The notes: generated from the letters alone by a model not told the origin. Shown: positions 1,385 through 13,516, numbered from the stretch's first letter. The stretch: DNA of 60,440 bases from Bacteroidota bacterium (GCA_026390935.1 JAPLEZ010000119.1:2073-62512), one strand, 5' to 3'. Translations and numbers: made by a program.

Positions 1385-1801
1385 TTAGGAGCGGGTTTTA
1401 TTGTATTTCATTTTTAATAAACTCCAGTAGTAATCAATCCAGCCTTTTTTAAAGGTTTCGGCAACAACAGCAGGAATATTTTTATGGGTAAAAACAATTT
1501 TACTTTTTGTTTTGTCTACTTTTTTAAATTCGAAAATCACTTCGCTCATGCACTCTTCAGGCCATTTTTCTTCATGCGCTCTCCACGACTGAACAATTAA
1601 CTTACCAGGAATAATTTTTAAATTTTTACCATAAGCATAACCGTCATAAACCGAAAAGCTGTCGCCTACTTTTTTACCAATCACAGCTTTTGCACCTGAT
1701 AAATCGGAGTGTTTTTTCGAATCCATTATTTGCTCGAAAAGCTCATCAACAGAAGCATTCAATGTTACTTGTTGCTTGAAAGAAGTTAATTTTATTGCCA
1801 T
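1385..1801 (-). CDS. SRPBCC (AHSA1-like) domain protein
   Basis: A 138-residue protein from the ATG at 1801 (MAIKLTSF). A longer frame exists upstream but its first 53 residues lie inside the TfoX-like gene and look like out-of-frame translation. The sequence has the START/SRPBCC pattern: an N-terminal strand, NASVDELFEQIMDS helix, several strands, and a long C-terminal helix with the WIDYYWSLL signature of AHSA1-like proteins. These bind hydrophobic ligands or act as Hsp90 co-chaperone-like factors; the ligand here is unknown. It is the last gene of mscL-TfoX-SRPBCC, with one base between the upstream stop and this ATG, so translation is probably coupled. Confidence 0.8.
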   Translation of the reverse strand: MAIKLTSFKQQVTLNASVDELFEQIMDSKKHSDLSGAKAVIGKKVGDSFSVYDGYAYGKNLKIIPGKLIVQSWRAHEEKWPEECMSEVIFEFKKVDKTKSKIVFTHKNIPAVVAETFKKGWIDYYWSLLKMKYNKTRS

Positions 1802-1802
1802 A

Positions 1803-2150
1803 CTATTTTTTCTTTTTTTTACTTGCTTTTGCTTTCGGATTAAATTCAATCGCCAGTTCAATCCACGACTGTAAATCATCGTCCATATCCACCCCTTCCG
1901 GCGAAACAAACACGTAGCCCTGCATTGGTTTTTTAGTAAAATCCATGATGCGTGCACCATTTCGTTTTAAAACCTCCTCTTGTAAATCTGGATCAAAACG
2001 AACCATCAGCTCATTTTTTACAACTCCCACACACATCTTATCATTGAGTAAATAACACAATCCACCCATCATCTTTTTTTCTTCAACAACAATTTTCTTT
2101 TCCTTGAAAATTCTTGTGATACGCTCACCCAAGTACTCGTCGAAGGCCAT
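1803..2150 (-). CDS. TfoX/Sxy N-terminal domain protein
   Basis: A 115-residue protein starting MAFDEYLGERI at 2150; the seven upstream in-frame residues overlap the mscL stop and are unlikely. It matches the TfoX N-terminal domain: an early helix, then KKMMGGLCYLLNDKMCVGVV (the usual MFGG-type core), VRFDPD, and a C-terminal helix ending in a lysine-rich tail. There is no TfoX C-terminal domain, so it is the short stand-alone form. In Gammaproteobacteria TfoX controls competence; single-domain versions in Bacteroidota have no known role. It sits one base after mscL and one base before the SRPBCC gene. Confidence 0.85.
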   Translation of the reverse strand: MAFDEYLGERITRIFKEKKIVVEEKKMMGGLCYLLNDKMCVGVVKNELMVRFDPDLQEEVLKRNGARIMDFTKKPMQGYVFVSPEGVDMDDDLQSWIELAIEFNPKAKASKKKKK

Positions 2151-2151
2151 A

Positions 2152-2532
2152 TTATTTTTTAAGTAAATCACGAATCTCAGTCAGCAACACTTCTTCTTTT
2201 GTTGGTGCAGGAGCGGCTGCAGGAGCTGCCGCTTCTTTTTTCTTGGAAGCATTCATTCCTTTAATGACCAAAAAAAGCACAAAGGCTACAATGATAAAAT
2301 TGATAACGCTTGATAAAAAAACGCCATACTTCACGGATCCAAAAGCAGTTAAATCCTGAATTTTATCCATATGAGCTCTTTCCAACAAAGGCTGCAACAA
2401 CAATGGCGTGATGACATCTTCAATAAAGGAAGAAATTATTTTTCCAAAGGCACCGCCAATAATCACTGCTACGGCCAAATCCACAACATTGCCCCTCATT
2501 GCGAATTGCTTAAATTCTTTTATCATGCTCAT
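2152..2532 (-). CDS. mscL: Large-conductance mechanosensitive channel MscL
   Basis: A 126-residue inner-membrane channel that opens under membrane tension and releases solutes on hypo-osmotic shock. The N-terminal amphipathic helix ([20 protein letters not shown]) and the glycine-rich pore helix with [11 protein letters not shown] are diagnostic. TM1 spans about 14-45 and TM2 about 70-95; an Ala-Pro-rich linker leads to the C-terminal bundle helix [14 protein letters not shown]. Length is close to the family norm. Either ATG at 2532 or at 2526 could be used. First gene of a three-gene minus-strand operon. Confidence 0.97.
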
Positions 2533-2627
2533 AAATTAAAATTTTAGTTTGTGAATGTTAATACAGCAAAAATGAAAGAAAAAAAGATCATCTCTATGCT
2601 TTGCAATAATATATACTACGAATTAGA

Positions 2628-3221
2628 TCAAAAACAATAGTTTACTCCAATAAAACTATCATTCCTCCACTCCTGTGAACTGTCATTGTATAAACTTAAA
2701 TAGGAAACCTCGCAGCGAATGAAAGCAGCAACTTTTTCATGAAAACGAAAAGAGAGTTCTGGCAAAATTGTATGTGATATTCCATTGCTGTAAAACCGCG
2801 TCCAACATGGCACAGCAAAAAAAAGTTTTTTGTGCGAGCAATGAACACCCAAACTCAAAAAAGGTTCGGCGCTACTCACAGCTGTGCTTCGTTGATCATT
2901 AACTAAACGAATGCGTGCATCCAATCCGAATCCTGCAGAAAATTGCAACGATTTAAATTTACGTGGAATAACATACTCCAAATGTGGCGTAATATCATAT
3001 GCGCTTAAACTAAACACATACAAAGTACCATACGATCGCAAACGCAATGATACTTTGGTATTAATCGACTTTATAATCGGACTGGTGTATTTCAAATTTG
3101 TAATTGGATACAAATATCTATTGCGTAGGCTACCAAAATCCATCGACAAATTATGCTGCGCTAACACTGAAAAATATCCAGTCAAAAGAAAAAACACTAT
3201 TGTAAATATTTTCTTTTTCAT
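2628..3221 (-). CDS. Small outer-membrane beta-barrel-like protein, function unknown
   Basis: 197 residues. A signal peptide (MKKKIFTIVFFLLTGYFSVLA) ends before QHNLSMDF, following the glutamine rule. The mature part is made of alternating hydrophobic/polar strands with many Tyr, Phe and Arg residues, and the last residues are FIGVNYCF, a terminal aromatic strand typical of outer-membrane barrels. No named family is recognised. Its ATG overlaps the stop of the heparinase-like lipoprotein gene by four bases, so the two are co-translated and may act together, for example in handling a polysaccharide or its breakdown products. That link is inference. Confidence 0.65.
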   Translation of the reverse strand: MKKKIFTIVFFLLTGYFSVLAQHNLSMDFGSLRNRYLYPITNLKYTSPIIKSINTKVSLRLRSYGTLYVFSLSAYDITPHLEYVIPRKFKSLQFSAGFGLDARIRLVNDQRSTAVSSAEPFLSLGVHCSHKKLFFAVPCWTRFYSNGISHTILPELSFRFHEKVAAFIRCEVSYLSLYNDSSQEWRNDSFIGVNYCF

Positions 3222-4027
3222 GGCGCTACTTCACTAAATGATTTGCCAATTTTAATTTCATCAAAGAAAACAATGTTGCTGTGTTCAGTTTTCTCTTTAC
3301 CACGATACTGGCCAAACTTAAAGTAGTTGCCGCTTCTGTTAAACAAATTTCTTTTGTAAAATTTGTAATCGCTCCCATTGAAAGGAGTTAAATAATTTCC
3401 ATTGATCCATGCTTCAACAAAAGCATCCTCTTCATCCGACCAATACACATGAAATACCACATCATACCACAATCCTTTTTTTGCATTTGCAAAAGACGCA
3501 ACGGTAAACGTATGATCATTTGAACTAGGATTTTCATTCATCTTTAAATCCAAATTCCCATCGGCATACACCAAAGCCATTGGCGGTGAAGAACCTCGCA
3601 ACACAGGAGAAGGCGTCCACCATTCCCCTTGCTCATAATTGGGCAAATCCTGCCATTGACAGAGTAAATTGTAATGCATGTCGGAGTAGTTGCTATCAAT
3701 CAAAAAGCTAAATCCATAATACACTTCAGTTTTGTATTTGGCACAATCGTAAATAGCAAATTCAGCACGGTAACCATTGTTAATGAAATCATCGGGACGC
3801 AAAGTGTTTTTAAGTGCATACTTTCCCTTTCGAACCGGATTCGTAACCAGTACGGTGTTGAATGTTGTATCAGGAACCAAATAATGAAATCCATCAATAC
3901 TGGCATTTTCAAAATCAAAAACCATTGATTGTACTTCAGCATTCGGGGCTGGGGAAGGAACCTTACCACAAGATAAAATCAATGCAAAAAAAGTAAAACA
4001 GATAATAAGTTGAGTTGCTCTCTTCAT
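3218..4027 (-). CDS. Polysaccharide lyase-like lipoprotein (heparin lyase I fold)
   Basis: About 269 residues from the ATG at 4027 (MKRATQLIICF); an ATG two codons upstream at 4033 is equally open. A lipobox, ALILSC, marks a lipidated cysteine at about residue 20, so it is membrane-anchored. The remainder resembles the heparin lyase I family (PF14099 type): DFENASIDGFHYL opening, GKYALKNTL, YRAEFAIYDCAKY, YNLLCQWQDLPNY, then KGLWYDVVFHVYW and a final FFDEIKIGKS. These enzymes cleave uronic-acid polymers by beta-elimination; the substrate here cannot be read. It overlaps the downstream barrel gene by four bases. Confidence 0.7.
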   Translation of the reverse strand: MKRATQLIICFTFFALILSCGKVPSPAPNAEVQSMVFDFENASIDGFHYLVPDTTFNTVLVTNPVRKGKYALKNTLRPDDFINNGYRAEFAIYDCAKYKTEVYYGFSFLIDSNYSDMHYNLLCQWQDLPNYEQGEWWTPSPVLRGSSPPMALVYADGNLDLKMNENPSSNDHTFTVASFANAKKGLWYDVVFHVYWSDEEDAFVEAWINGNYLTPFNGSDYKFYKRNLFNRSGNYFKFGQYRGKEKTEHSNIVFFDEIKIGKSFSEVAP

Positions 4028-4130
4028 TTGCATATTAAGTACAGGCGCTAATTTCAGAAAAGAAAATTAGAATTCAGAATTTGAATTTTCACAAAATCCA
4101 CTTCGTAGCACGACCAATTAATTTTCTACC

Positions 4131-4475
4131 ATGGCAAACATCTCTCCTGAGTACCTTTATCAAAGCATATTAAATTTTTGCAGCAACGATGAGAGTTCAG
4201 CGAAGGAATTACTGGCGCTCATTAAGTCTTCTGTAGCGGAATCATATGAAACAATTAGTGCTTTGCAACTGAAAGAAAACAGCGAGGAAATTGCTCAAAT
4301 AGCACATCGCTTGCGATTTTCATTTTCAGTGATTGGCTACACAGAGATGCAAGACGATGCTGCAAACATTGAAAACACAATAGTAGAGAAAGAAATAAAT
4401 GATGGACTGGAAAAGGAATTTGAGCAGTTCAAAAATAAATTCAATGATCTAAATACAACACTAAAATTAATGTAA
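4131..4475 (+). CDS. Hpt (histidine phosphotransfer) domain protein
   Basis: 114 residues, all alpha-helical by pattern, matching a stand-alone Hpt domain. The phosphoacceptor is His59 in QIAHRLRFSFSVIG, followed by the conserved small-residue turn. Hpt proteins pass phosphate between a hybrid kinase and a response regulator. The last base of its stop codon is the first base of the next ATG (TAATG), and the next gene is a receiver protein, so the two are almost certainly partners. No histidine kinase lies nearby; it would have to come from elsewhere in the genome. Confidence 0.85.
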   Translation: MANISPEYLYQSILNFCSNDESSAKELLALIKSSVAESYETISALQLKENSEEIAQIAHRLRFSFSVIGYTEMQDDAANIENTIVEKEINDGLEKEFEQFKNKFNDLNTTLKLM

Positions 4476-4969
4476 TGAGCAAGCAAGATAAATTAACGAT
4501 TTTGGTGGTGGATGACGACGTGTTTTATTTAAAATCCATTATTATCGGATTAGACGGCAAGTATCACGACAAAGTAAATTTTAAATATTTTTTCAATCCA
4601 ATTGATTTGCTCAATCAATTGAAAGCAAATGAATTTCAAGTCGACCTAATACTTTTAGATTACAATTTAGACAACAGTATTTCAGGCATTGAACTGATAC
4701 AAAGAATAAAGGCAATCAATCCACAATTTGACATTGTGATGGTAAGTTCGCAACAAAATTTACAGACTGTATTTTCTACTATAAAAAGTGGTGCTAGAAC
4801 TTATATTCAAAAAGGAAGCAATATCTTAAAGGATTTACAAGATTGCGTTGACAACAAAATCGCCTCTAAGGAAGACGAAAGACTAGCAAAGAAAACAAAG
4901 AAGATTGCAATATTTGCAATTCCGATTTTAGTAGTGATTCTTTTTACTCTTTATTTGTTGAAGAAATAA
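4475..4969 (+). CDS. Response regulator receiver domain with C-terminal membrane anchor
   Basis: 164 residues. Residues 7-125 form a CheY-like receiver: acidic triad Asp13-Asp15 in VVDDDVF, phosphoacceptor Asp62 in LLDYNLD, switch Ser91 in VMVSSQ, and conserved Lys113 in YIQKG. There is no DNA-binding or enzymatic output domain. Instead a charged linker (KEDERLAKKTKK) leads to one strongly hydrophobic segment, residues about 143-162, ending in two lysines, which looks like a C-terminal tail anchor. Such an arrangement is uncommon. It probably acts as a phosphate sink or docking switch at the inner membrane, paired with the upstream Hpt protein. Confidence 0.85.
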   Translation: MSKQDKLTILVVDDDVFYLKSIIIGLDGKYHDKVNFKYFFNPIDLLNQLKANEFQVDLILLDYNLDNSISGIELIQRIKAINPQFDIVMVSSQQNLQTVFSTIKSGARTYIQKGSNILKDLQDCVDNKIASKEDERLAKKTKKIAIFAIPILVVILFTLYLLKK

Positions 4970-4983
4970 GGCGAGTGCTAGCA

Positions 4984-5020
4984 AAAAGCAGCAGTTATTT
5001 TATCGTCTTCTGCTGCTTTT
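4984..5020. terminator. Bidirectional terminator between converging REC and PorP/SprF genes
   Basis: An 11-bp perfect stem (AAAAGCAGCAG at 4984-4994 with CTGCTGCTTTT at 5010-5020) with a 15-base loop. It has T runs in both directions. The right arm and part of the loop lie inside the last codons of the PorP/SprF gene and encode its Ser-Ser-Arg-Arg end. Confidence 0.7.
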
Positions 5021-6037
5021 GTAAGTATTGGCCAGCATATAACTTGCTGATATTTCAAACCCACCTAATCCTCTTGTAGCGGTTCGTAAATCAGAATGAT
5101 TAACATCGTAACTTAGACCAAAACGATAGTCGGAAAATTCATATTGAAACACTGCCACAAATGCATCGGCCAAGCGATGAAACAATCCGACAGAAAATGC
5201 CGAGCCTTTAACAAAACCTGTGTATCGGCTGGATTGATTCAAACCATATCTCATTAAAGCACCATAAAAAAACTCCAAAGAACTTCCTTGATTGTAAAAA
5301 GTAAATCCTGGAGCCACAGCCATATTTGAATTACCCAAACTAAACAGTCCTTGTCCGTGCAAAACTATTTTCATGTACATTGGATCTGCCAATTGCGTGA
5401 AAGAAACATCGGGTCTGTTGACGTGAAAAACCGAAAGTCCGACATTAAATTTCTTATAATTATTTCCAATTACTTTCGCCGTAAATGCGCGATTGCTGTA
5501 AGTCCAATTAATTCCTAAAGCACAGTCTACATAAATTTTGGAGGGCAATCCATCTATTTCATTGCTTGGCAAATTAGGATCATAATAAGTTCCGTTGTAT
5601 TGACTACCCCACTGAAAATTTCCGTAATTAATTCTTCTTTGCGCAAATCCACCTTGCAATCCACCTCCCAGCACATTATTAGCATTCAATTTAACGTGAT
5701 AAGCTAAAGTGAAATTAATTGCATCAATTCTCAATTTGGAAGACCCTGCATCATCGTTAAATAAATTAACTCCAGTGGCCCAATAACTCTTCGATTTTTT
5801 CCTGTTGTTTAACTTCATATCAAACGATGCTGATGAAGTTGAAAAAGGTTGCGCTACTGTGCCCCACTGATTTTTGTAATTGATGTTCGCTTGCATATCG
5901 TACACTGCACCAGCCAATGCAGGATTTTGCATCAGCGGCGCAGTGCTAAACTGACTGAAATGCTGATCTTGTGCAACAACACTAAAGCTGCACAAAAACC
6001 ATAAAACAAGTTGATATGTTTTTATATACTTCAGCAC
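5000..6037 (-). CDS. PorP/SprF family type IX secretion membrane protein
   Basis: 345 residues. A signal peptide ends VVA before QDQHFSQ, then the PorP/SprF hallmark HFSQFSTAPLMQNPALAG follows at the mature N-terminus. The rest is a predicted 14-strand-type outer-membrane barrel with repeats such as YKNQWGTVAQPF and LGGGLQGGFAQRR. PorP/SprF proteins bind T9SS shuttle components and are often dedicated to a neighbouring type B cargo. Here the gene follows directly after the stop of the giant GH8 protein with no spacer, on the same strand, so it is very probably the dedicated partner for that cargo. Confidence 0.93.
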   Translation of the reverse strand: MLKYIKTYQLVLWFLCSFSVVAQDQHFSQFSTAPLMQNPALAGAVYDMQANINYKNQWGTVAQPFSTSSASFDMKLNNRKKSKSYWATGVNLFNDDAGSSKLRIDAINFTLAYHVKLNANNVLGGGLQGGFAQRRINYGNFQWGSQYNGTYYDPNLPSNEIDGLPSKIYVDCALGINWTYSNRAFTAKVIGNNYKKFNVGLSVFHVNRPDVSFTQLADPMYMKIVLHGQGLFSLGNSNMAVAPGFTFYNQGSSLEFFYGALMRYGLNQSSRYTGFVKGSAFSVGLFHRLADAFVAVFQYEFSDYRFGLSYDVNHSDLRTATRGLGGFEISASYMLANTYKSSRRR

Positions 6038-9000
6038 TTATTGCACTATACTTAAGTTTCCTCTTTTGTGAACAACTTCTCCACCTAATAACTTTGCATC
6101 CAGAACATAAATGAATTCTCCCGAGTTCATTTGCATAGTTCTAAAAACTCCATCCCAACACAATTCTTGATCTTCCGTTTCAAAAACTTTTTCTCCCCAA
6201 CGATCAAAAATCACAAAATGCATAGTCTCAATACAACTTCCGTACACACATAATTTTGCATTTTCTTCATTCCCACTTTTCGGATTCAATGCATTGGGAA
6301 CAAACACTTCACTGCAATCTTCTACAATGATATTCACTGTGTCTTGCGACTTACAATTTTTATTGCTTCCACTTACGATATAGGTAATATTTTCTGATGG
6401 TTTTGATTTTGGAGAAGAACAATCAGTGCAGCTTAAATCGGTTGATGGCGTCCACAAATAATTGCTGGCTCCGCTTGCTTGCAGTTGAACAGTTTTTCCA
6501 CGAGGAATTTTCATATCATCAGAAACTTTTAATTGAGGAGTATTTACTATCTCCAGCGTGTCCTTTGCAATAACTGCAGCACATCCACCAACAGCAGCTA
6601 TGGTATTTGTGATATAATAAACTCCTGCAGCGCTTGCACCAATATTTACAATTCCCGAAACAGAATCAATCACCAATCCAACTGATGAATGGAATTTTCC
6701 TGAAACACTTCCACCACTTAAAATAGGAGAAATTGAAATTGAATCTTTACAATATTCTTTATCAGGATAAGAGAAATTAGCTTTTCCTTGAATGCTGATT
6801 TCTACACTTTGAGTTGCACTCGCTGAACCACAACCCGCTACTCCAGCAATATCATTGGTAACGGTATATTTACCAGCTGCACTAGTTGTTAAATCAATTG
6901 TTCCATTAACAGAATTAATAGTTAATCCTGCAGGACTTGCCGAGAAAACACCGGCGCTGGCACCTGCAGCTAATTTCACTTTTGCACTTCCAGCACTCGT
7001 GCACAACGATGAGGACGAATAAGAAAAATTAGCATTAGGACTACTTGGGTAAATCACCACCAAACCAGTATCACTAACCTGAGCGCAACCACCAGTTGCG
7101 GCAATCGTGTTTGTCACAACATATGTACCTGCTGTACTTCCAGCCAAATCAACCACCCCACTTGAAGCATTTATTTTCAATCCCACTTTTGCAGTAAATA
7201 CTCCGCTCACACCTCCATTAATAAAAACGGGAGTTGCGGTACCTGCCGACTGGCAATATGGACCGCTATATACAAAATCGGCCACAGATGCATCGTTAAT
7301 GACAACAGTAGTTGTGCTGCTATCGCTTCCACAAGAATTAGAGACTTTATTTTTTACTGAATAAGTTCCTGCTGTGCTATTCACTATATCAAGTTTTCCG
7401 CTAGTAGCATCAATTACTAAACCACTTGCAGAACTAAAAACACCCAACGCACCACTTCCAAAAACATAATCAACATTTGCGCTTGCAGTGCCTTTGCAAA
7501 AAGGTCCCTTGTAAGAAATTGTAGCAGCCTTAGGAGCAGCAATAATATTTATAGTCACTGTATTAGAAGTATCTTTTGATTTTGCTGTGCAACTTAACGA
7601 GCTTGTCAAAACAACTTTTACTACATCACCATTTTTAAAAGTAGTGGTGAAATTTGAATCTGCACTTGCAGAAGAAACTCCGTTTACGAGCCATATGAAT
7701 GATGGAGTAGCTCCTCCATTTTTCACAGTCGCTTTAAATGCAATGGTAGTTCCTGCACACACTGCACCTGGATCATTGATAACAACATCTGCTACTGCTC
7801 CTGCACTCACGGTGATATTCACAACATTAGAGGTGTCGCTTGATTTATTAATACAAGTGGCGTTCGACTTCATGATCACACTCACTGCATCACCATTTTT
7901 CAATGTTGTGCTGTTAAACAAACTATCGGTTTTACCTACTATATTGGCGCCGTTCAATTGCCATTGAAAAGTAGGCGTTGTTCCTGCATTTGCTTTTGAT
8001 GACACTTTAAAGCTCACCTCTTTTCCACTGCAGATAGTTGTGTTGTCAGCCGTGATTTGTACATCGGGATTTTGTTTGCTATTCACTTTAATTTTCAACG
8101 CTGATGAGTTCACAGTTTTAATTGAAGCACAACTTGAACTGCTTGTCATTTCAACATAAACACTATCGCCATCTTTAATGCTTAAAGGAGTATAAGAGGT
8201 ATCGGTAACGCCAGTATTCACGCCATTTAAAAACCATTTATACGTGGGTGCATTCCCTTGTCCGCTTCTGCTGCCCAAAGAAAATTTAACTGATGTTCCC
8301 TCGCAAATTGTTGTTCCCTGATCCGATGTAATAGATACTTTAGGAACCAATGCTGAAGTAACAGAAATTAAAATTTTATTGGACGATACCGGAGAATTGG
8401 AAACACATTTTTCATTCGAGGTCAATACCACCTTTAACGAATCACCATTTTTCAAAGTGCTTGAATTGTAGGTATCTGATGTTGCGCCAACCACTGCAAC
8501 TCCATTCAAATACCATTGATAAGTAGGAGTAGTTCCTCCCAAAGTTGGAGTTGCTTTTAGCACTACCGCTTCACCACTACATATCGGTCCCGGATCGTTC
8601 ACTACAACACTAGCGGTGACACTGGTGACAATTTCAATTCTCACCGATCCTGTAAATACTGTATCGCAAGTTCCGGAAATTACTTTTCGACGGAAATAAG
8701 TTGTAGTATTCAATTTTGGAGGTAAATAGGATAGTGAAGTGGCCGATGCAATGTCGGTCCATTTTATAAGATCAGTCGATGATTGCCATTGATAGCTATA
8801 AATTCCAGTACCACCTGTTGGTAGTAAAATATATTTAATGCTATCGGGATTCACCGCGCTGCATACTGTTTGGTTTTCCCCAATGCTTCCCGAAGTTGTT
8901 AATCTAGGATACACCGAAATTTTTATTGGCAAGGTGCTAATTGTTCCGCACAAAGTACCAGTGATATTTCTGCGGTACCATCGCGTTTCAGTTAATGCCG

Positions 9001-12000
9001 CAGGAGCATAATCTTTTGCTGTTGCGGCAGCAATATCAGTAAACACGGAACTATCAGCTTCTGTTGACTCTTGCCATTGATAATTGTAGGGAGGAGTTCC
9101 TCCTGAAGCATCGGCTGTGCTGGTTAATTTTGCAGGGACTTGATTGTAGCAAATAATTTGTGAAGCTGAAATTGTTCCTGCCGACAAAGTTCCGTTCACC
9201 GTAATTTTTATTCCCGCAGTGTATGCAAAGGTGGTTGCATCAGTCACTTTTCTTCTGAAATAAGTAGTAACCGCCAATACGCCCGGTGCGTAAGCAGTAT
9301 CGGTTGCCAATGCAATGGCATCCCACTTCGAACTATCTAGTGACGATTCCCATTGGTAAGTATAAGGAGGCGTACCTCCGCTTGCAGTAGTTAAATTATT
9401 TATTTTTTTAGGTGCTGTTCCTCCGCAAATGGTTTGCTTAGTACCAATGGTTCCTGGCAACAAAGTACTCGCCACAGCGCCACACGTTGCTACGTTTTGT
9501 GCACCGATGGAATCAACTGTTAATCCAAATGCGTTGACATAAGCAATGTTGATTATTTTTCCGTTGGCAGGACATGTAGCCAATTTCGCAACTACAGTGT
9601 ATTCCACTGAATCATTGTATAAAACCGGACCAGCACGTTTTGGCCATTTTACGCGCGGAGCAGTGTAAGTGCCCCCGGCTGTTGCACTCACGAAAGTTAA
9701 GGAAGTTGGCAAAGGATCCGACACCTCTAAATCAAAAGCCGAATCGAAATGCGCATCCCAACTTAATATCTTTGGTTTACTCCAAACGCCGCTGCTTTTT
9801 GCAGCATCCCCTTGCGCAAAACCAGCATACCCAGCATCAGTAGAAGTAAATCCGGTAAAAGTTTTAAATGGCAAACCAGTGATATCGTTGAGCCATAATT
9901 TCATGGTACCGTCAATCAACTCAAATTTAATTTTTGCTTTATCAAATGGTGCAGCGTAACCTTCAGGCGCAATAGTATATTTTAACACACCATTTTCCCA
10001 TATTTTTATTCCTGCCATATTTCCCCAATAAGCCATTTCCATTTCCACATAAATTCCTTGCACCGCAGTTGAAGGACGTTGCCCGCTTTTGTAACGAAAT
10101 ACAAAACCGAATTTTTCCTGTCCATCATGATCGATATCGGCCACTAAGGTTCCATTTTTTCCATGTGAATATTTTTCTTTGATGAACAACGCATTTTTAC
10201 CGTTAAAGTCCATGCCACCTGCACCAAAAGTTGGCAAATCGCTAGCTGACCCGTCAATTGCCGACCAGCGTGTTGCGTCGCTCATAGCAGGGCGAGATGT
10301 AGTACCAATGGTTTGTTTAAACTTTACTGTGTAATTGATATTTTCATTCAAAGCATAAGCCGCTTTGTCGGATTTCTTTGTCATCGTTGTGCCGCTTACT
10401 GGCGGTGACACAAAAGCACAAGTAAGCGTAACATCGGCTGAAGAAGATGTTGGTGAATCGGTAGACGATGAAATCCAAACAGTGTTTGTTACTTTTTTAT
10501 CGGGCATTCCCGGACAAGTTCCTTGCGCTTTGGCCACATATTTTATATCACCATAAATACCTACCAACATCACAGGAACAGTCCATTTAATAATTTCTCT
10601 ACCTCCCGAAACGGTCATGGTAGCTTTTACTCCCGCCAAAGTATCGTCGGTAAATTTCACAAATTTGAAATCCAAAGGAATGGTGTCCACCATAAACACA
10701 TCATACATTTCTCGTCCTGGAAGCGGACCTTCACCAGAAACTCGTCTCCAGGTAAATCCATCATATTCCTCCACCAGCAATTTATCATAAATTTTATCGG
10801 GAGTAAAAATTGCTGTGCACGCATCCTTATCAAATCGGTCCATTACTAAGCCAACACTTGAGGTAGGATCAGCATAGTTTGGACCGATTAAAAAATAAGG
10901 TTCGGCACCACTTCCAACGGCATTTTTAAAAGAAGAAGATTTATATGACCAATCGTCTTGAACTCTTCCGGTAAAAAGTGGATTTGGTGGATTGGACTCC
11001 ATTTGAACCGAATACCAAATGGGGCGCAACGCACCTTTGTGCAATTGATATCTGTTGCCTAAGTGCGACAATACTGCATGTGTTGGCGCGGTGATATCGG
11101 CAGGGAATTTAATGATTAATCGTTGATCCCATTTTTTTCCTGCATCATCCCCCACTGGAATAGGCTGACCTTTAAAATCGAAATCGGCCAATAAACCTGT
11201 TTGCAAATTTTTTCCGATTAAGGTCCATCCAAAAGGATTTGTTGCAGCATTGTAAATTCCCTTATTCACATTATCAAACATGAAATACGACACTCTATAA
11301 TTTGCTAAGTTGATGTATGCTTCTTGCGCATTGTTCCAGTTTCTAAACAAATGAAAATAAGAGTTCGGACCAGCCTCCGCGTATGCATAAGAAAAGTTTA
11401 CATTTTTTCTACCGCCGTTCAACCAACCACCATCCGAAGAATTTTTGGCCACCAAGGTAAAAGTCACGTCACTGCCCGGATTCACTTCAGTTTTATCTGC
11501 AGTTTTTTCAACGACAAGAGATCTGTTTTTCAAAATATCCACACAATTTCTTTGCATGTTGTAGGTAGCATTGTTTGGATATTCGTTGCTAGTCCAACCA
11601 GAACCATTGGTCGCTGTGATTGTTGCTACTTGACAAACTCTGTCCACTGTTTTTGGGCTAAGCACTTTCACTGTAAAAGTTTTTTTGCCGGTAGTGGGCA
11701 CTATACCACTTGCACTTTTAAAGCCGGGAACGGTACCAATTGTAAAAGTTAAATTTGAACCAGACACCACTCCTCCACCAGCATTCACCACTTGATATTG
11801 CGCAGATATAGGAACGGTGATCACCACACCAGTAGCATCCAATTTTCCGTAATTTCTGTAATCAATCGTATAAGTAATTTGATCTCCCGTAAAGGCAAAA
11901 GTTTTATCCACCGACACATAAACTTTCATGTTTGCGCCTGCCACCATTTCTTCAGGAGCGTGATAGTTTCCTGAAAGCGTGAGCATGCCTAAAATTCGAA

Positions 12001-13516
12001 ACCAACCATGAAAATATTCCGCCTCACTTTGAACGATAATCGTATCACTTTCTTTTAAACCTTTATTGACGTCGTCCCATTTCAACTCGCACTGGCGATA
12101 CAATTCAGCAATTAACGTTTCATCTCCAAAAGCCACAGCAGATGGCGCAGCTGTTCCCAATGAAAAATTTATTTTATCGGGGCCAACCAGTGTGCCACTA
12201 CCTAAAATATTGTCTACAATCTGAGAAATTCCTTTATGATTTACAGTGGTTGAAACAGGATCAGGAGAAGATCCTAAAGAAGAACAAACTCCGGGATCTT
12301 TAAAAAATGTAGCCAAACGAGTAGCGTTGTCTTTCATAGTTGTGTTGGTACCCAAAGAATAAGCATGTGTTGCAGGATTCCAGGTGTATATTCCGTCACC
12401 TCTCCACATATAGTTTAAAATTGTTCGCCAAGGCATACGAAATGCCTCTCCTTTACTTTTTCCTTGCGTTGGATCACCATCTTTAAAAGTAACAGCGCTT
12501 CCGTTCACGTCATAAGCACCGGCATAAGGTAAACGGCCTTGCGCATAACTTTGCGCCATCAGCCATTCGGTGGAAGCCTCAGCTCTTTTAAATTGTTCTA
12601 TGCACCAAGGTGATCCACCGTTGGCTTGTAAAAATGTTGCAAATGAGCGATAGTAAGCCGGAGCGATGTAACTGCCAAATCCATCTTGATTGTAATCGTT
12701 GCTTGGTACTTCAACCGATGGCCTGAACGGACCATTCAATATCCCCCAATCGGTATTTTCACCAAAGGTATTTCCACCTTTAGGATAACCATCGAGACCA
12801 ATATGACCAGAAAGATAACCATCAATTCCATTTCCACTTCCGTCATCAATCCCTACTGTGTCTGCCAATTCAGTAATAATGTTTTTTGCTTCTTCTAAAT
12901 ACGACATTGTTTTAGTACCTCCGCTTCCGTTGTTTACTATAACTCCAGAAAGCGATCCCCATTGCTTGGTGGCCACCAATAAAGCTAAAGCAATGTCGTA
13001 ATCACCATCGGCAGCAGCGTCACCACTACCTTCTTTGATGGTGTGAACACCATAGCGGTAGGTAGGCCATGTTTTAATGCCGTCTCTGTATCGAGGCACT
13101 TCGGTCACCATATCGTCGTGCACGCGCATCCATAAACCATTGAATGTAACTTGATCGCCCATATACGCTGCGGCAAGCATGGCGTATCCTTCTCCTTCGG
13201 CGCAATCATAAGGGCAACCTAAATTTCCTTTTATGTATTTCACTCCTCCGGCGGTAGCGCCTGTATAACGAAAATGATTGGCCATAACTTGATAGGCCTC
13301 CCGCATGGCTTTTTCCATATCGGCATGAGTAACTCCTTCAGCGTTATATTTGGCTAATGTTTTTCCTTTGGTATATTCTAAAAATTGAGGAAAAGGATAA
13401 TTTGGATTACCTGAATTTATATTTACTGGAACCTGGGCAATAGCACTTTGCGCAATGCAAATTAATGCAAGAAAACACAAACTCTTTAAAATGGCTTTTT
13501 TATAAAACGTGATCAT
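6038..13516 (-). CDS. Giant T9SS cargo: GH8 glycoside hydrolase, DUF11 domains, Ig-like repeats, type B sorting domain
   Basis: 2492 residues from the ATG at 13516 (MITFYKKAIL); a longer frame adds 23 residues with no signal. The signal peptide ends AIA before Gln28. Residues about 40-520 are a GH8 (alpha/alpha)6 domain: the general-acid region CAEGEGYAMLAAA (Glu107) and the DGDYDIALALL motif (Asp170-174) are clear, and a later helix has GEAFRMPWR. GH8 enzymes cut cellulose, chitosan or xylan; the substrate is not decided. After it come DUF11-type domains (from about 528, 664 and about 1080), the last with a concanavalin/LamG-like insert, then three, four and four Ig-like repeats, and a final 92-residue T9SS type B domain (SEVFVPNALNP, FDRWGEKVFE, SGEFIYVL). 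It is secreted and surface-linked, probably through the PorP/SprF encoded downstream. Confidence 0.93.
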   Translation of the reverse strand: MITFYKKAILKSLCFLALICIAQSAIAQVPVNINSGNPNYPFPQFLEYTKGKTLAKYNAEGVTHADMEKAMREAYQVMANHFRYTGATAGGVKYIKGNLGCPYDCAEGEGYAMLAAAYMGDQVTFNGLWMRVHDDMVTEVPRYRDGIKTWPTYRYGVHTIKEGSGDAAADGDYDIALALLVATKQWGSLSGVIVNNGSGGTKTMSYLEEAKNIITELADTVGIDDGSGNGIDGYLSGHIGLDGYPKGGNTFGENTDWGILNGPFRPSVEVPSNDYNQDGFGSYIAPAYYRSFATFLQANGGSPWCIEQFKRAEASTEWLMAQSYAQGRLPYAGAYDVNGSAVTFKDGDPTQGKSKGEAFRMPWRTILNYMWRGDGIYTWNPATHAYSLGTNTTMKDNATRLATFFKDPGVCSSLGSSPDPVSTTVNHKGISQIVDNILGSGTLVGPDKINFSLGTAAPSAVAFGDETLIAELYRQCELKWDDVNKGLKESDTIIVQSEAEYFHGWFRILGMLTLSGNYHAPEEMVAGANMKVYVSVDKTFAFTGDQITYTIDYRNYGKLDATGVVITVPISAQYQVVNAGGGVVSGSNLTFTIGTVPGFKSASGIVPTTGKKTFTVKVLSPKTVDRVCQVATITATNGSGWTSNEYPNNATYNMQRNCVDILKNRSLVVEKTADKTEVNPGSDVTFTLVAKNSSDGGWLNGGRKNVNFSYAYAEAGPNSYFHLFRNWNNAQEAYINLANYRVSYFMFDNVNKGIYNAATNPFGWTLIGKNLQTGLLADFDFKGQPIPVGDDAGKKWDQRLIIKFPADITAPTHAVLSHLGNRYQLHKGALRPIWYSVQMESNPPNPLFTGRVQDDWSYKSSSFKNAVGSGAEPYFLIGPNYADPTSSVGLVMDRFDKDACTAIFTPDKIYDKLLVEEYDGFTWRRVSGEGPLPGREMYDVFMVDTIPLDFKFVKFTDDTLAGVKATMTVSGGREIIKWTVPVMLVGIYGDIKYVAKAQGTCPGMPDKKVTNTVWISSSTDSPTSSSADVTLTCAFVSPPVSGTTMTKKSDKAAYALNENINYTVKFKQTIGTTSRPAMSDATRWSAIDGSASDLPTFGAGGMDFNGKNALFIKEKYSHGKNGTLVADIDHDGQEKFGFVFRYKSGQRPSTAVQGIYVEMEMAYWGNMAGIKIWENGVLKYTIAPEGYAAPFDKAKIKFELIDGTMKLWLNDITGLPFKTFTGFTSTDAGYAGFAQGDAAKSSGVWSKPKILSWDAHFDSAFDLEVSDPLPTSLTFVSATAGGTYTAPRVKWPKRAGPVLYNDSVEYTVVAKLATCPANGKIINIAYVNAFGLTVDSIGAQNVATCGAVASTLLPGTIGTKQTICGGTAPKKINNLTTASGGTPPYTYQWESSLDSSKWDAIALATDTAYAPGVLAVTTYFRRKVTDATTFAYTAGIKITVNGTLSAGTISASQIICYNQVPAKLTSTADASGGTPPYNYQWQESTEADSSVFTDIAAATAKDYAPAALTETRWYRRNITGTLCGTISTLPIKISVYPRLTTSGSIGENQTVCSAVNPDSIKYILLPTGGTGIYSYQWQSSTDLIKWTDIASATSLSYLPPKLNTTTYFRRKVISGTCDTVFTGSVRIEIVTSVTASVVVNDPGPICSGEAVVLKATPTLGGTTPTYQWYLNGVAVVGATSDTYNSSTLKNGDSLKVVLTSNEKCVSNSPVSSNKILISVTSALVPKVSITSDQGTTICEGTSVKFSLGSRSGQGNAPTYKWFLNGVNTGVTDTSYTPLSIKDGDSVYVEMTSSSSCASIKTVNSSALKIKVNSKQNPDVQITADNTTICSGKEVSFKVSSKANAGTTPTFQWQLNGANIVGKTDSLFNSTTLKNGDAVSVIMKSNATCINKSSDTSNVVNITVSAGAVADVVINDPGAVCAGTTIAFKATVKNGGATPSFIWLVNGVSSASADSNFTTTFKNGDVVKVVLTSSLSCTAKSKDTSNTVTINIIAAPKAATISYKGPFCKGTASANVDYVFGSGALGVFSSASGLVIDATSGKLDIVNSTAGTYSVKNKVSNSCGSDSSTTTVVINDASVADFVYSGPYCQSAGTATPVFINGGVSGVFTAKVGLKINASSGVVDLAGSTAGTYVVTNTIAATGGCAQVSDTGLVVIYPSSPNANFSYSSSSLCTSAGSAKVKLAAGASAGVFSASPAGLTINSVNGTIDLTTSAAGKYTVTNDIAGVAGCGSASATQSVEISIQGKANFSYPDKEYCKDSISISPILSGGSVSGKFHSSVGLVIDSVSGIVNIGASAAGVYYITNTIAAVGGCAAVIAKDTLEIVNTPQLKVSDDMKIPRGKTVQLQASGASNYLWTPSTDLSCTDCSSPKSKPSENITYIVSGSNKNCKSQDTVNIIVEDCSEVFVPNALNPKSGNEENAKLCVYGSCIETMHFVIFDRWGEKVFETEDQELCWDGVFRTMQMNSGEFIYVLDAKLLGGEVVHKRGNLSIVQ
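6545..7535 (-). repeat. Four tandem Ig-like repeats (about 77-80 residues each) in the GH8 protein
   Basis: Four coding repeats share the pattern FSYsGpyC near the start, a GVFSA-type strand, a LxIDxxSGxxD core and a SxAGxYxVTNxI ending (for example STAGTYVVTNTI and SAAGKYTVTNDI). The strong likeness between units suggests duplication inside the gene. Boundaries are approximate. Confidence 0.8.
7540..8630 (-). repeat. Four tandem Ig-like repeats (about 83 residues each) in the GH8 protein
   Basis: Each unit has ICSG/ICEG with the first cysteine, a TPTYQWYLNG-type tryptophan strand, a STLKNGDSLKV-type strand and a second cysteine near the end (SNEKCVSN, SSSCAS, SNATCIN, SSLSCTA). This is the usual Bacteroidota surface-protein Ig/PKD-like repeat. 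Boundaries are approximate. Confidence 0.8.
8630..9465 (-). repeat. Three tandem Ig-like repeats (about 90 residues each) in the GH8 protein
   Basis: Units share a QTICGG/QIICYN/QTVCSA opening, SGGTPPYTYQWESS-type core and a TTYFRRKV ending. They come between the DUF11 part and the next repeat class. Boundaries are approximate. Confidence 0.8.

Follow-up and report, generated by a model that had tools for sequence, protein, structure and literature searches.

Architecture of the gene pair

We analysed a 60,440-nucleotide stretch of DNA from an uncultured Bacteroidota bacterium (GCA_026390935.1; the window) and focused on two adjoining genes, both on the minus strand. The first of these (6038-13516) encodes a protein of 2492 aa, referred to below as the giant GH8 protein. 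Its mechanical ORF opens at a TTG located 23 codons before an ATG; the ATG start was preferred because it gives a clean Sec signal peptide, as read from the sequence (aa 1-27, MITFYKK...AQSAIA; 13436..13516). The second gene (5000..6037) encodes a PorP/SprF outer-membrane protein of 345 aa. Its GTG start abuts the TAA of the giant GH8 gene with a gap of 0 bases, confirming that the two genes follow each other without a spacer. A sigma-70 promoter scan gave matches at chance level.

Pfam matched Glyco_hydro_8, DUF11, Ig_7, Ig_3 and CHU_C in the 2492-aa protein, so the architecture proposed in the initial annotation, with GH8, DUF11, Ig-like and type B domains joined in one gene, was borne out. 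The GH8 domain (aa 29-528; 11933..13432) is followed by three DUF11 domains. DUF11 no. 1 occupies aa 529-660 (11537..11932; Pfam DUF11 at 531-635), DUF11 no. 2 aa 664-1036 (10409..11527; Pfam and AF2 model) and DUF11 no. 3 aa 1039-1344 (9485..10402; Pfam DUF11 at aa ~1259-1344). The initial annotation had counted several DUF11 domains, one of them with an insert. The first part holds, while two of the three domains turned out to be split. The insert in DUF11 no. 3 (about aa 1073-1258; 9743-10300) is conserved and had been described as LamG-like. We found no support for this: the window's insert has no Pfam match, LamG was matched in none of 27 members, and there was no significant sequence match in the PDB. 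In one relative the second insert matched Gal-bind_lectin weakly (E 0.008).

The DUF11 domains are followed by Ig-like repeats. Pairwise scoring against shuffles sorted eleven units of 81-96 aa into three classes of 3 + 4 + 4, as had been proposed, with z of 9-22 within classes and at most 4.2 between them. Class 1 spans aa 1355-1633 (8618..9454), class 2, which is of the Ig_7 type and also recognised by Pfam, aa 1634-1996 (7529..8617), and class 3 aa 1997-2326 (6539..7528). To these we add a twelfth, Ig/PKD-like unit of 74 aa just before the C-terminal domain (aa 2327-2400; 6317..6538), which resembles class 2 weakly (z about 4, at most 4.5). No DNA tandem repeat was detected by TRF, so that the units must be old and diverged. 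Together, the DUF11 and Ig-like domains would form the stalk of the protein, which ends in a type B T9SS C-terminal domain (CTD; aa 2401-2492; 6041..6316).

The GH8 domain and its catalytic residues

The GH8 domain scored 39.8 bits against PF01270 (cut-off 24). An AF2 model built from a 36-sequence alignment had a pLDDT of 85 and a pTM of 0.89, and its 42 best PDB fold matches (Foldseek) were all GH8 enzymes. The structural comparison suggested in the initial annotation thus led to enzymes and not to non-enzymatic homologues only. The best fold match was CelA (1cem, E 3.6e-12, TM-target 0.74), with a glucanase, a xylanase and a chitosanase next behind it. In a profile sequence search with the same domain, glucanase 5xd0 and chitosanases ranked above CelA.

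Six residues (E107, D170, D172, D174, E357 and R360) were invariant in the 36 relatives. In a global profile alignment (probability 100) to a canonical GH8 set made up mostly of same-genus proteins, E107 (codon 13196-13198) aligned with the general acid and E357 (codon 12446-12448) with the Asp base. The usual Asp (D278 in CelA), a feature of the classical subgroup, was absent and replaced by Glu in 36/36 sequences. Alignment and invariance together indicate that the base position is Glu across the whole clade. A proposal to subdivide GH8 by the location of the base is noted in PMC6173055. We consider catalysis by the domain probable, E107 serving as the acid and E357 as the base. Few GH8 enzymes have a Glu in the latter role, and it might reduce activity.

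The domain shares with CelA the (alpha/alpha)6 fold, an acid Glu at the equivalent position (CelA E95) and the R..WR motif. It differs from CelA in sequence (19% identity), in length (about 500 residues against 363), in its Glu at the position of D278, and in that members of the giant GH8 clade are always fused to DUF11 with its insert.

A CBM3-like insert in DUF11 no. 2

A stretch of about 200 residues (aa ~703-910, aligned core ~706-865; 10787..11410) is inserted into DUF11 no. 2. Among the members scanned, the insert had no Pfam match, CBM_3 included, and for this reason we call it CBM3-like and not CBM3. Its AF2 model (pTM 0.82) matched about 13 CBM3 structures with a Foldseek probability of 1.00 and a TM-target of 0.59-0.73. 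The top E-values in this search belonged to integrin chains with a TM-target near 0.1 and an rmsd of 20-34 A, which we read as generic beta-sandwich matches. When 41 inserts were compared with 24 CBM3 sequences by hhalign, the probability was 94.1 and the score 52.2, while 100 column-shuffled profiles scored at most 20.8. The comparison with three CBM3 sequences alone was weak (13%), and CBM3 accounted for two of the five marginal PDB profile matches of the insert.

The likeness to CBM3 (CipA CBM3a, 1NBC; Cel9V CBM3b', 2WOB) therefore consists of the fold and a co-linear profile similarity over about 122 columns, in which the DDWSY of CBM3 corresponds to an NDYS[FY] motif of the inserts. Unlike CBM3, the insert lies within a DUF11 domain, falls below Pfam detection and has mostly changed contact-strip residues. 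Judging from the profiles and the predicted structure, we regard it as homologous to family-3 cellulose-binding modules. The cellulose-contact strip of CBM3a, which we take to consist of D56, H57, R112 and W118, reads K, N, Q and P in the window's insert; an aromatic residue (Y or W) is kept at the W118 position in 16 of the 41 aligned copies. With the strip lost in the window's insert, its ligand and affinity are unsure.

In the 16 clade-bearing genomes, 32 inserts paired one-to-one with 32 clade GH8 domains, and the canonical GH8 genes of the same genomes lacked the insert. We also considered whether the insert is a general module. No GH8-free copy was present in these 16 genomes or in 395 phylum genomes, where the matches touched DUF11 ends only, and this possibility was rejected. 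In our reading, the GH8 domain is obligately fused to a DUF11 domain bearing a divergent CBM3-like module; this module would keep a beta-1,4-glucan chain in place at the GH8 active site or orient it there.

The type B CTD and its probable PorP/SprF partner

The CTD scored 30.4 and 36.7 bits in two CHU_C scans, both above the cut-off of 27, and 32.1 bits with TIGR04131, just under the NCBI cut-off of 35; the usual NGDGxN motif is lost. The PorP/SprF protein was recognised over its full length by both PorP_SprF (PF11751; 127 bits vs a cut-off of 22.3, E 1.3e-36) and TIGR03519 (T9SS_PorP_fam; 160 bits vs 90.6). Type B CTDs need cognate PorP/SprF shuttles for secretion (PMC12618676) and bind PorP/SprF for surface anchorage; type B proteins without PorE have been postulated to be mobile (PMC9143113). 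No PorE-like gene adjoins the PorP gene of the window. We counted only 15 PorP/SprF matches in the genome that contains the window, against 65 for type B CTDs, so that many cargoes must share shuttles or use others.

One close ortholog of the window's PorP was found (67% identity), in genome G004, where it directly follows a giant GH8 gene with a 3-bp gap. The genes around the pair differ between the window and G004, suggesting that the two-gene cassette is the conserved unit. The next PorP relatives are outside the genus (best 35-43% identity, against about 31% for own-genus paralogs), and the best non-orthologous matches of the window's CTD are outside the genus as well. At the 20 PorP loci inspected outside the genus there was no GH8 gene, and in 12 of them another type B cargo lay directly upstream of PorP. 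Most relatives of the giant GH8 gene, in turn, lack an adjacent PorP. The search for the same pair elsewhere recovered the G004 ortholog, and none of the 20 PorP relatives inspected outside the genus had a GH8 cargo; the outcome named in the initial annotation as a refutation, a PorP/SprF gene found mostly without GH8, was largely what we saw. A PorP specific to GH8 was rejected on this basis, and the dedicated partner claimed in the initial annotation stands for the CTD-PorP pair and not for GH8.

Linkage of CTD and PorP genes was also seen in 18 other pairs with small gaps. Over 20 pairs, CTD and PorP similarities were correlated (Mantel r 0.59, reached by 0/2000 permutations). The correlation persisted when the GH8 pairs were dropped (6/2000) and when each genome contributed a single pair (1/2000). 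In an earlier set of pairs, none was seen inside the own genome, which supplied only five pairs, one of them false. By analogy with characterised systems, the PorP protein is the probable shuttle or anchor of the CTD, with GH8 as one cargo among many. SprB-SprF and Fjoh_3952-Fjoh_3951 (PMC12618676, PMC9143113) likewise link a type B cargo gene to a PorP/SprF gene. Pairs of the SprB-SprF type carry adhesin-type cargo, whereas the window pair carries a glycoside hydrolase and has no adjacent PorE-like gene. A distant PorP/SprF gene was found divergent beside a clade GH8 gene in four Bacteroidales loci (minus strand; L053 8472-9638, L055 8392-9561, L061 8474-9640 and L071 8330-9499), and the association of GH8 with PorP may have arisen more than once.

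Distribution and history of the clade

A scan of GTDB genomes for the giant GH8 clade left 79 loci. The hosts were Cytophaga, Sporocytophaga, Cytophagales MAGs, Paludibacteraceae and other Bacteroidales (many from rumen and horse gut), together with three Flavobacteriales MAGs of the window's genus. In 395 sampled genomes of the window's class, strong matches were confined to this genus. Among 65 C-termini of intact reading frames, 26 matched type B and 22 type A. Gut Bacteroidales often carry tandem pairs (L064, L069, L072, L073, L085, L090, L099, L101, L105), in which the gene for a clade GH8 of about 1080-1110 aa immediately precedes that for a second one of about 2600-2900 aa; the larger has a type B-like C-terminus.

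In the tree, the window pair formed its own branch (99/93), and the other giant GH8 of the genus (group II) fell inside a Cytophagales/Sphingobacteriales clade (100/100). These separate positions led us to reject the view that the window gene is an ordinary duplicate of the group II gene, and they suggest two gains. From the tree, two separate acquisitions of a giant GH8 in the genus appear likely, with the deep placement unsure. The own genome has a second paralog of the group II type, cut by the end of its contig (C35; L018 16693-17217).

Earlier work had described giant GH8 proteins that combine Ig domains with a CTD in C. hutchinsonii and S. myxococcoides, and stated that the function of their large additional regions was unknown (PMC6247017). 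CHU_1075 and the Sporocytophaga GH8 resemble the window's protein in size (about 2700 aa), in a GH8 domain of about 400 aa, in a long Ig-like region and in a T9SS CTD (PMC6247017, PMC7906972, PMC8564354). By its published description, CHU_1075 differs in that its CTD is of type A (TIGR04183) and that a galactose-binding domain has been reported for it; CBM3 and DUF11 are not mentioned in the text of PMC6247017 on this protein.

Neighbouring genes and candidate substrate

No cellulase gene was found near the pair in the window. The only polysaccharide enzyme nearby is a putative polysaccharide lyase (PF14099, E 5e-30; 3218-4033, minus strand). Genes for an Hpt protein and a response regulator lie between the lyase and PorP genes on the other strand (4131-4969). 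A cellulolytic repertoire was evident in the genus: the own genome contains five GH9 matches (one a fragment) and two canonical GH8 genes, one with a GH5 gene beside it. In relatives, the neighbourhood of the giant GH8 genes includes GH5, GH9 and GH26 genes; at the G004 ortholog, a GH26 gene lies just upstream. In genome G003, the giant GH8 region (L022) is a cellulase cluster with an adjoining GH5-CBM6 gene and a GH9 a few kb off; directly before the giant GH8 lies a gene (1561-5847) for a type B CTD protein of 1428 aa that contains PKD domains.

The initial annotation had named own or prey exopolysaccharide as a possible target. This found no support. The CBM3-like domain and the GH5, GH9 and GH26 genes of the genus speak for cellulose or hemicellulose from outside the cell rather than for exopolysaccharide. 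We regard external cellulose, or a related beta-glucan of plants or algae, as the most likely substrate.

Interpretation

The reading we favour, and hold to be rather likely, is that of a surface-displayed cellulase-type GH8 with a CBM3-like module, a stalk, a type B CTD and a cognate PorP, acting on an external beta-glucan. Several elements first described for this locus are supported: the GH8 is of an enzymatic kind, it sits on a long stalk of Ig-like units, the protein has a type B CTD, and a PorP/SprF gene lies next to it. The CTD would take the protein across the outer membrane by the T9SS. The adjacent PorP/SprF would then take it over as cognate shuttle and anchor, and the protein would be displayed at the surface with its GH8 domain outermost. 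Both the surface retention and the shuttle function are suggested by analogy with studied type B systems.

Xylanases, lichenases and chitosanases are found in GH8 as well. The same machine might act on hemicellulose, mixed-linkage glucan or chitosan, its CBM3-like domain having switched ligand. This is the best of the alternatives, though we think it unlikely. The closeness of other GH8 activities behind CelA in the fold search, the rank of 5xd0 and chitosanases above CelA in the sequence search, the lost contact residues of the window's insert and the GH26 gene upstream of the G004 ortholog all speak for it. Against this, CelA heads the fold matches, and the insert is related to cellulose-binding modules. 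BcsZ, which acts on bacterial cellulose, also belongs to GH8 and was among the weaker fold matches, as would suit an enzyme that trims own or prey exopolysaccharide in a BcsZ-like manner. Such a role seems improbable: in the fold search, CelA and the glucanases come far ahead of structures of the BcsZ type, the scanned genes flanking the pair form no exopolysaccharide operon, and the relatives come from Cytophaga/Sporocytophaga and herbivore-gut Bacteroidales. A role as an adhesin, whose GH8 and CBM3-like domains would bind glycan without cutting it, with stalk and PorP serving attachment or gliding, would fit the lack of a PorE-like gene beside PorP (such type B proteins being postulated as mobile) and the mostly adhesin-type cargoes, SprB among them, of that literature (PMC9143113), but is very improbable given that all 36 divergent relatives keep the carboxylates at the acid and base positions unchanged.

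Neither giant GH8 proteins that carry Ig domains and a CTD nor type B/PorP pairs are new in themselves. The new elements in our reading of a surface cellulase are the CBM3-like insert with its strict coupling to GH8, the Glu base position and an enzyme as cargo on a PorP cassette. We found no description of the insert, the Glu base or an enzyme-PorP cassette in the open-access literature. We propose, tentatively, that the core of GH8, DUF11 and CBM3-like domain represents an unrecognised class of Bacteroidota cellulases that use Glu as the base and conceal a cellulose-binding domain, placed in this genus under a PorP/SprF-specific type B signal.

If true, this would explain how cellulose is held by the large Cytophaga and Sporocytophaga GH8 proteins, in which the parts outside the catalytic domain had no known role. 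The one-to-one CBM3-like domain gives a testable role to part of this non-catalytic region. It would also extend the relatives of CBM3 in Bacteroidota, where Pfam CBM_3 is rare (above cut-off in 6 of 395 sampled genomes). Finally, the PorP pairing would offer a clear example of an enzyme carried by a type B shuttle; most studies of this system have dealt with adhesins.
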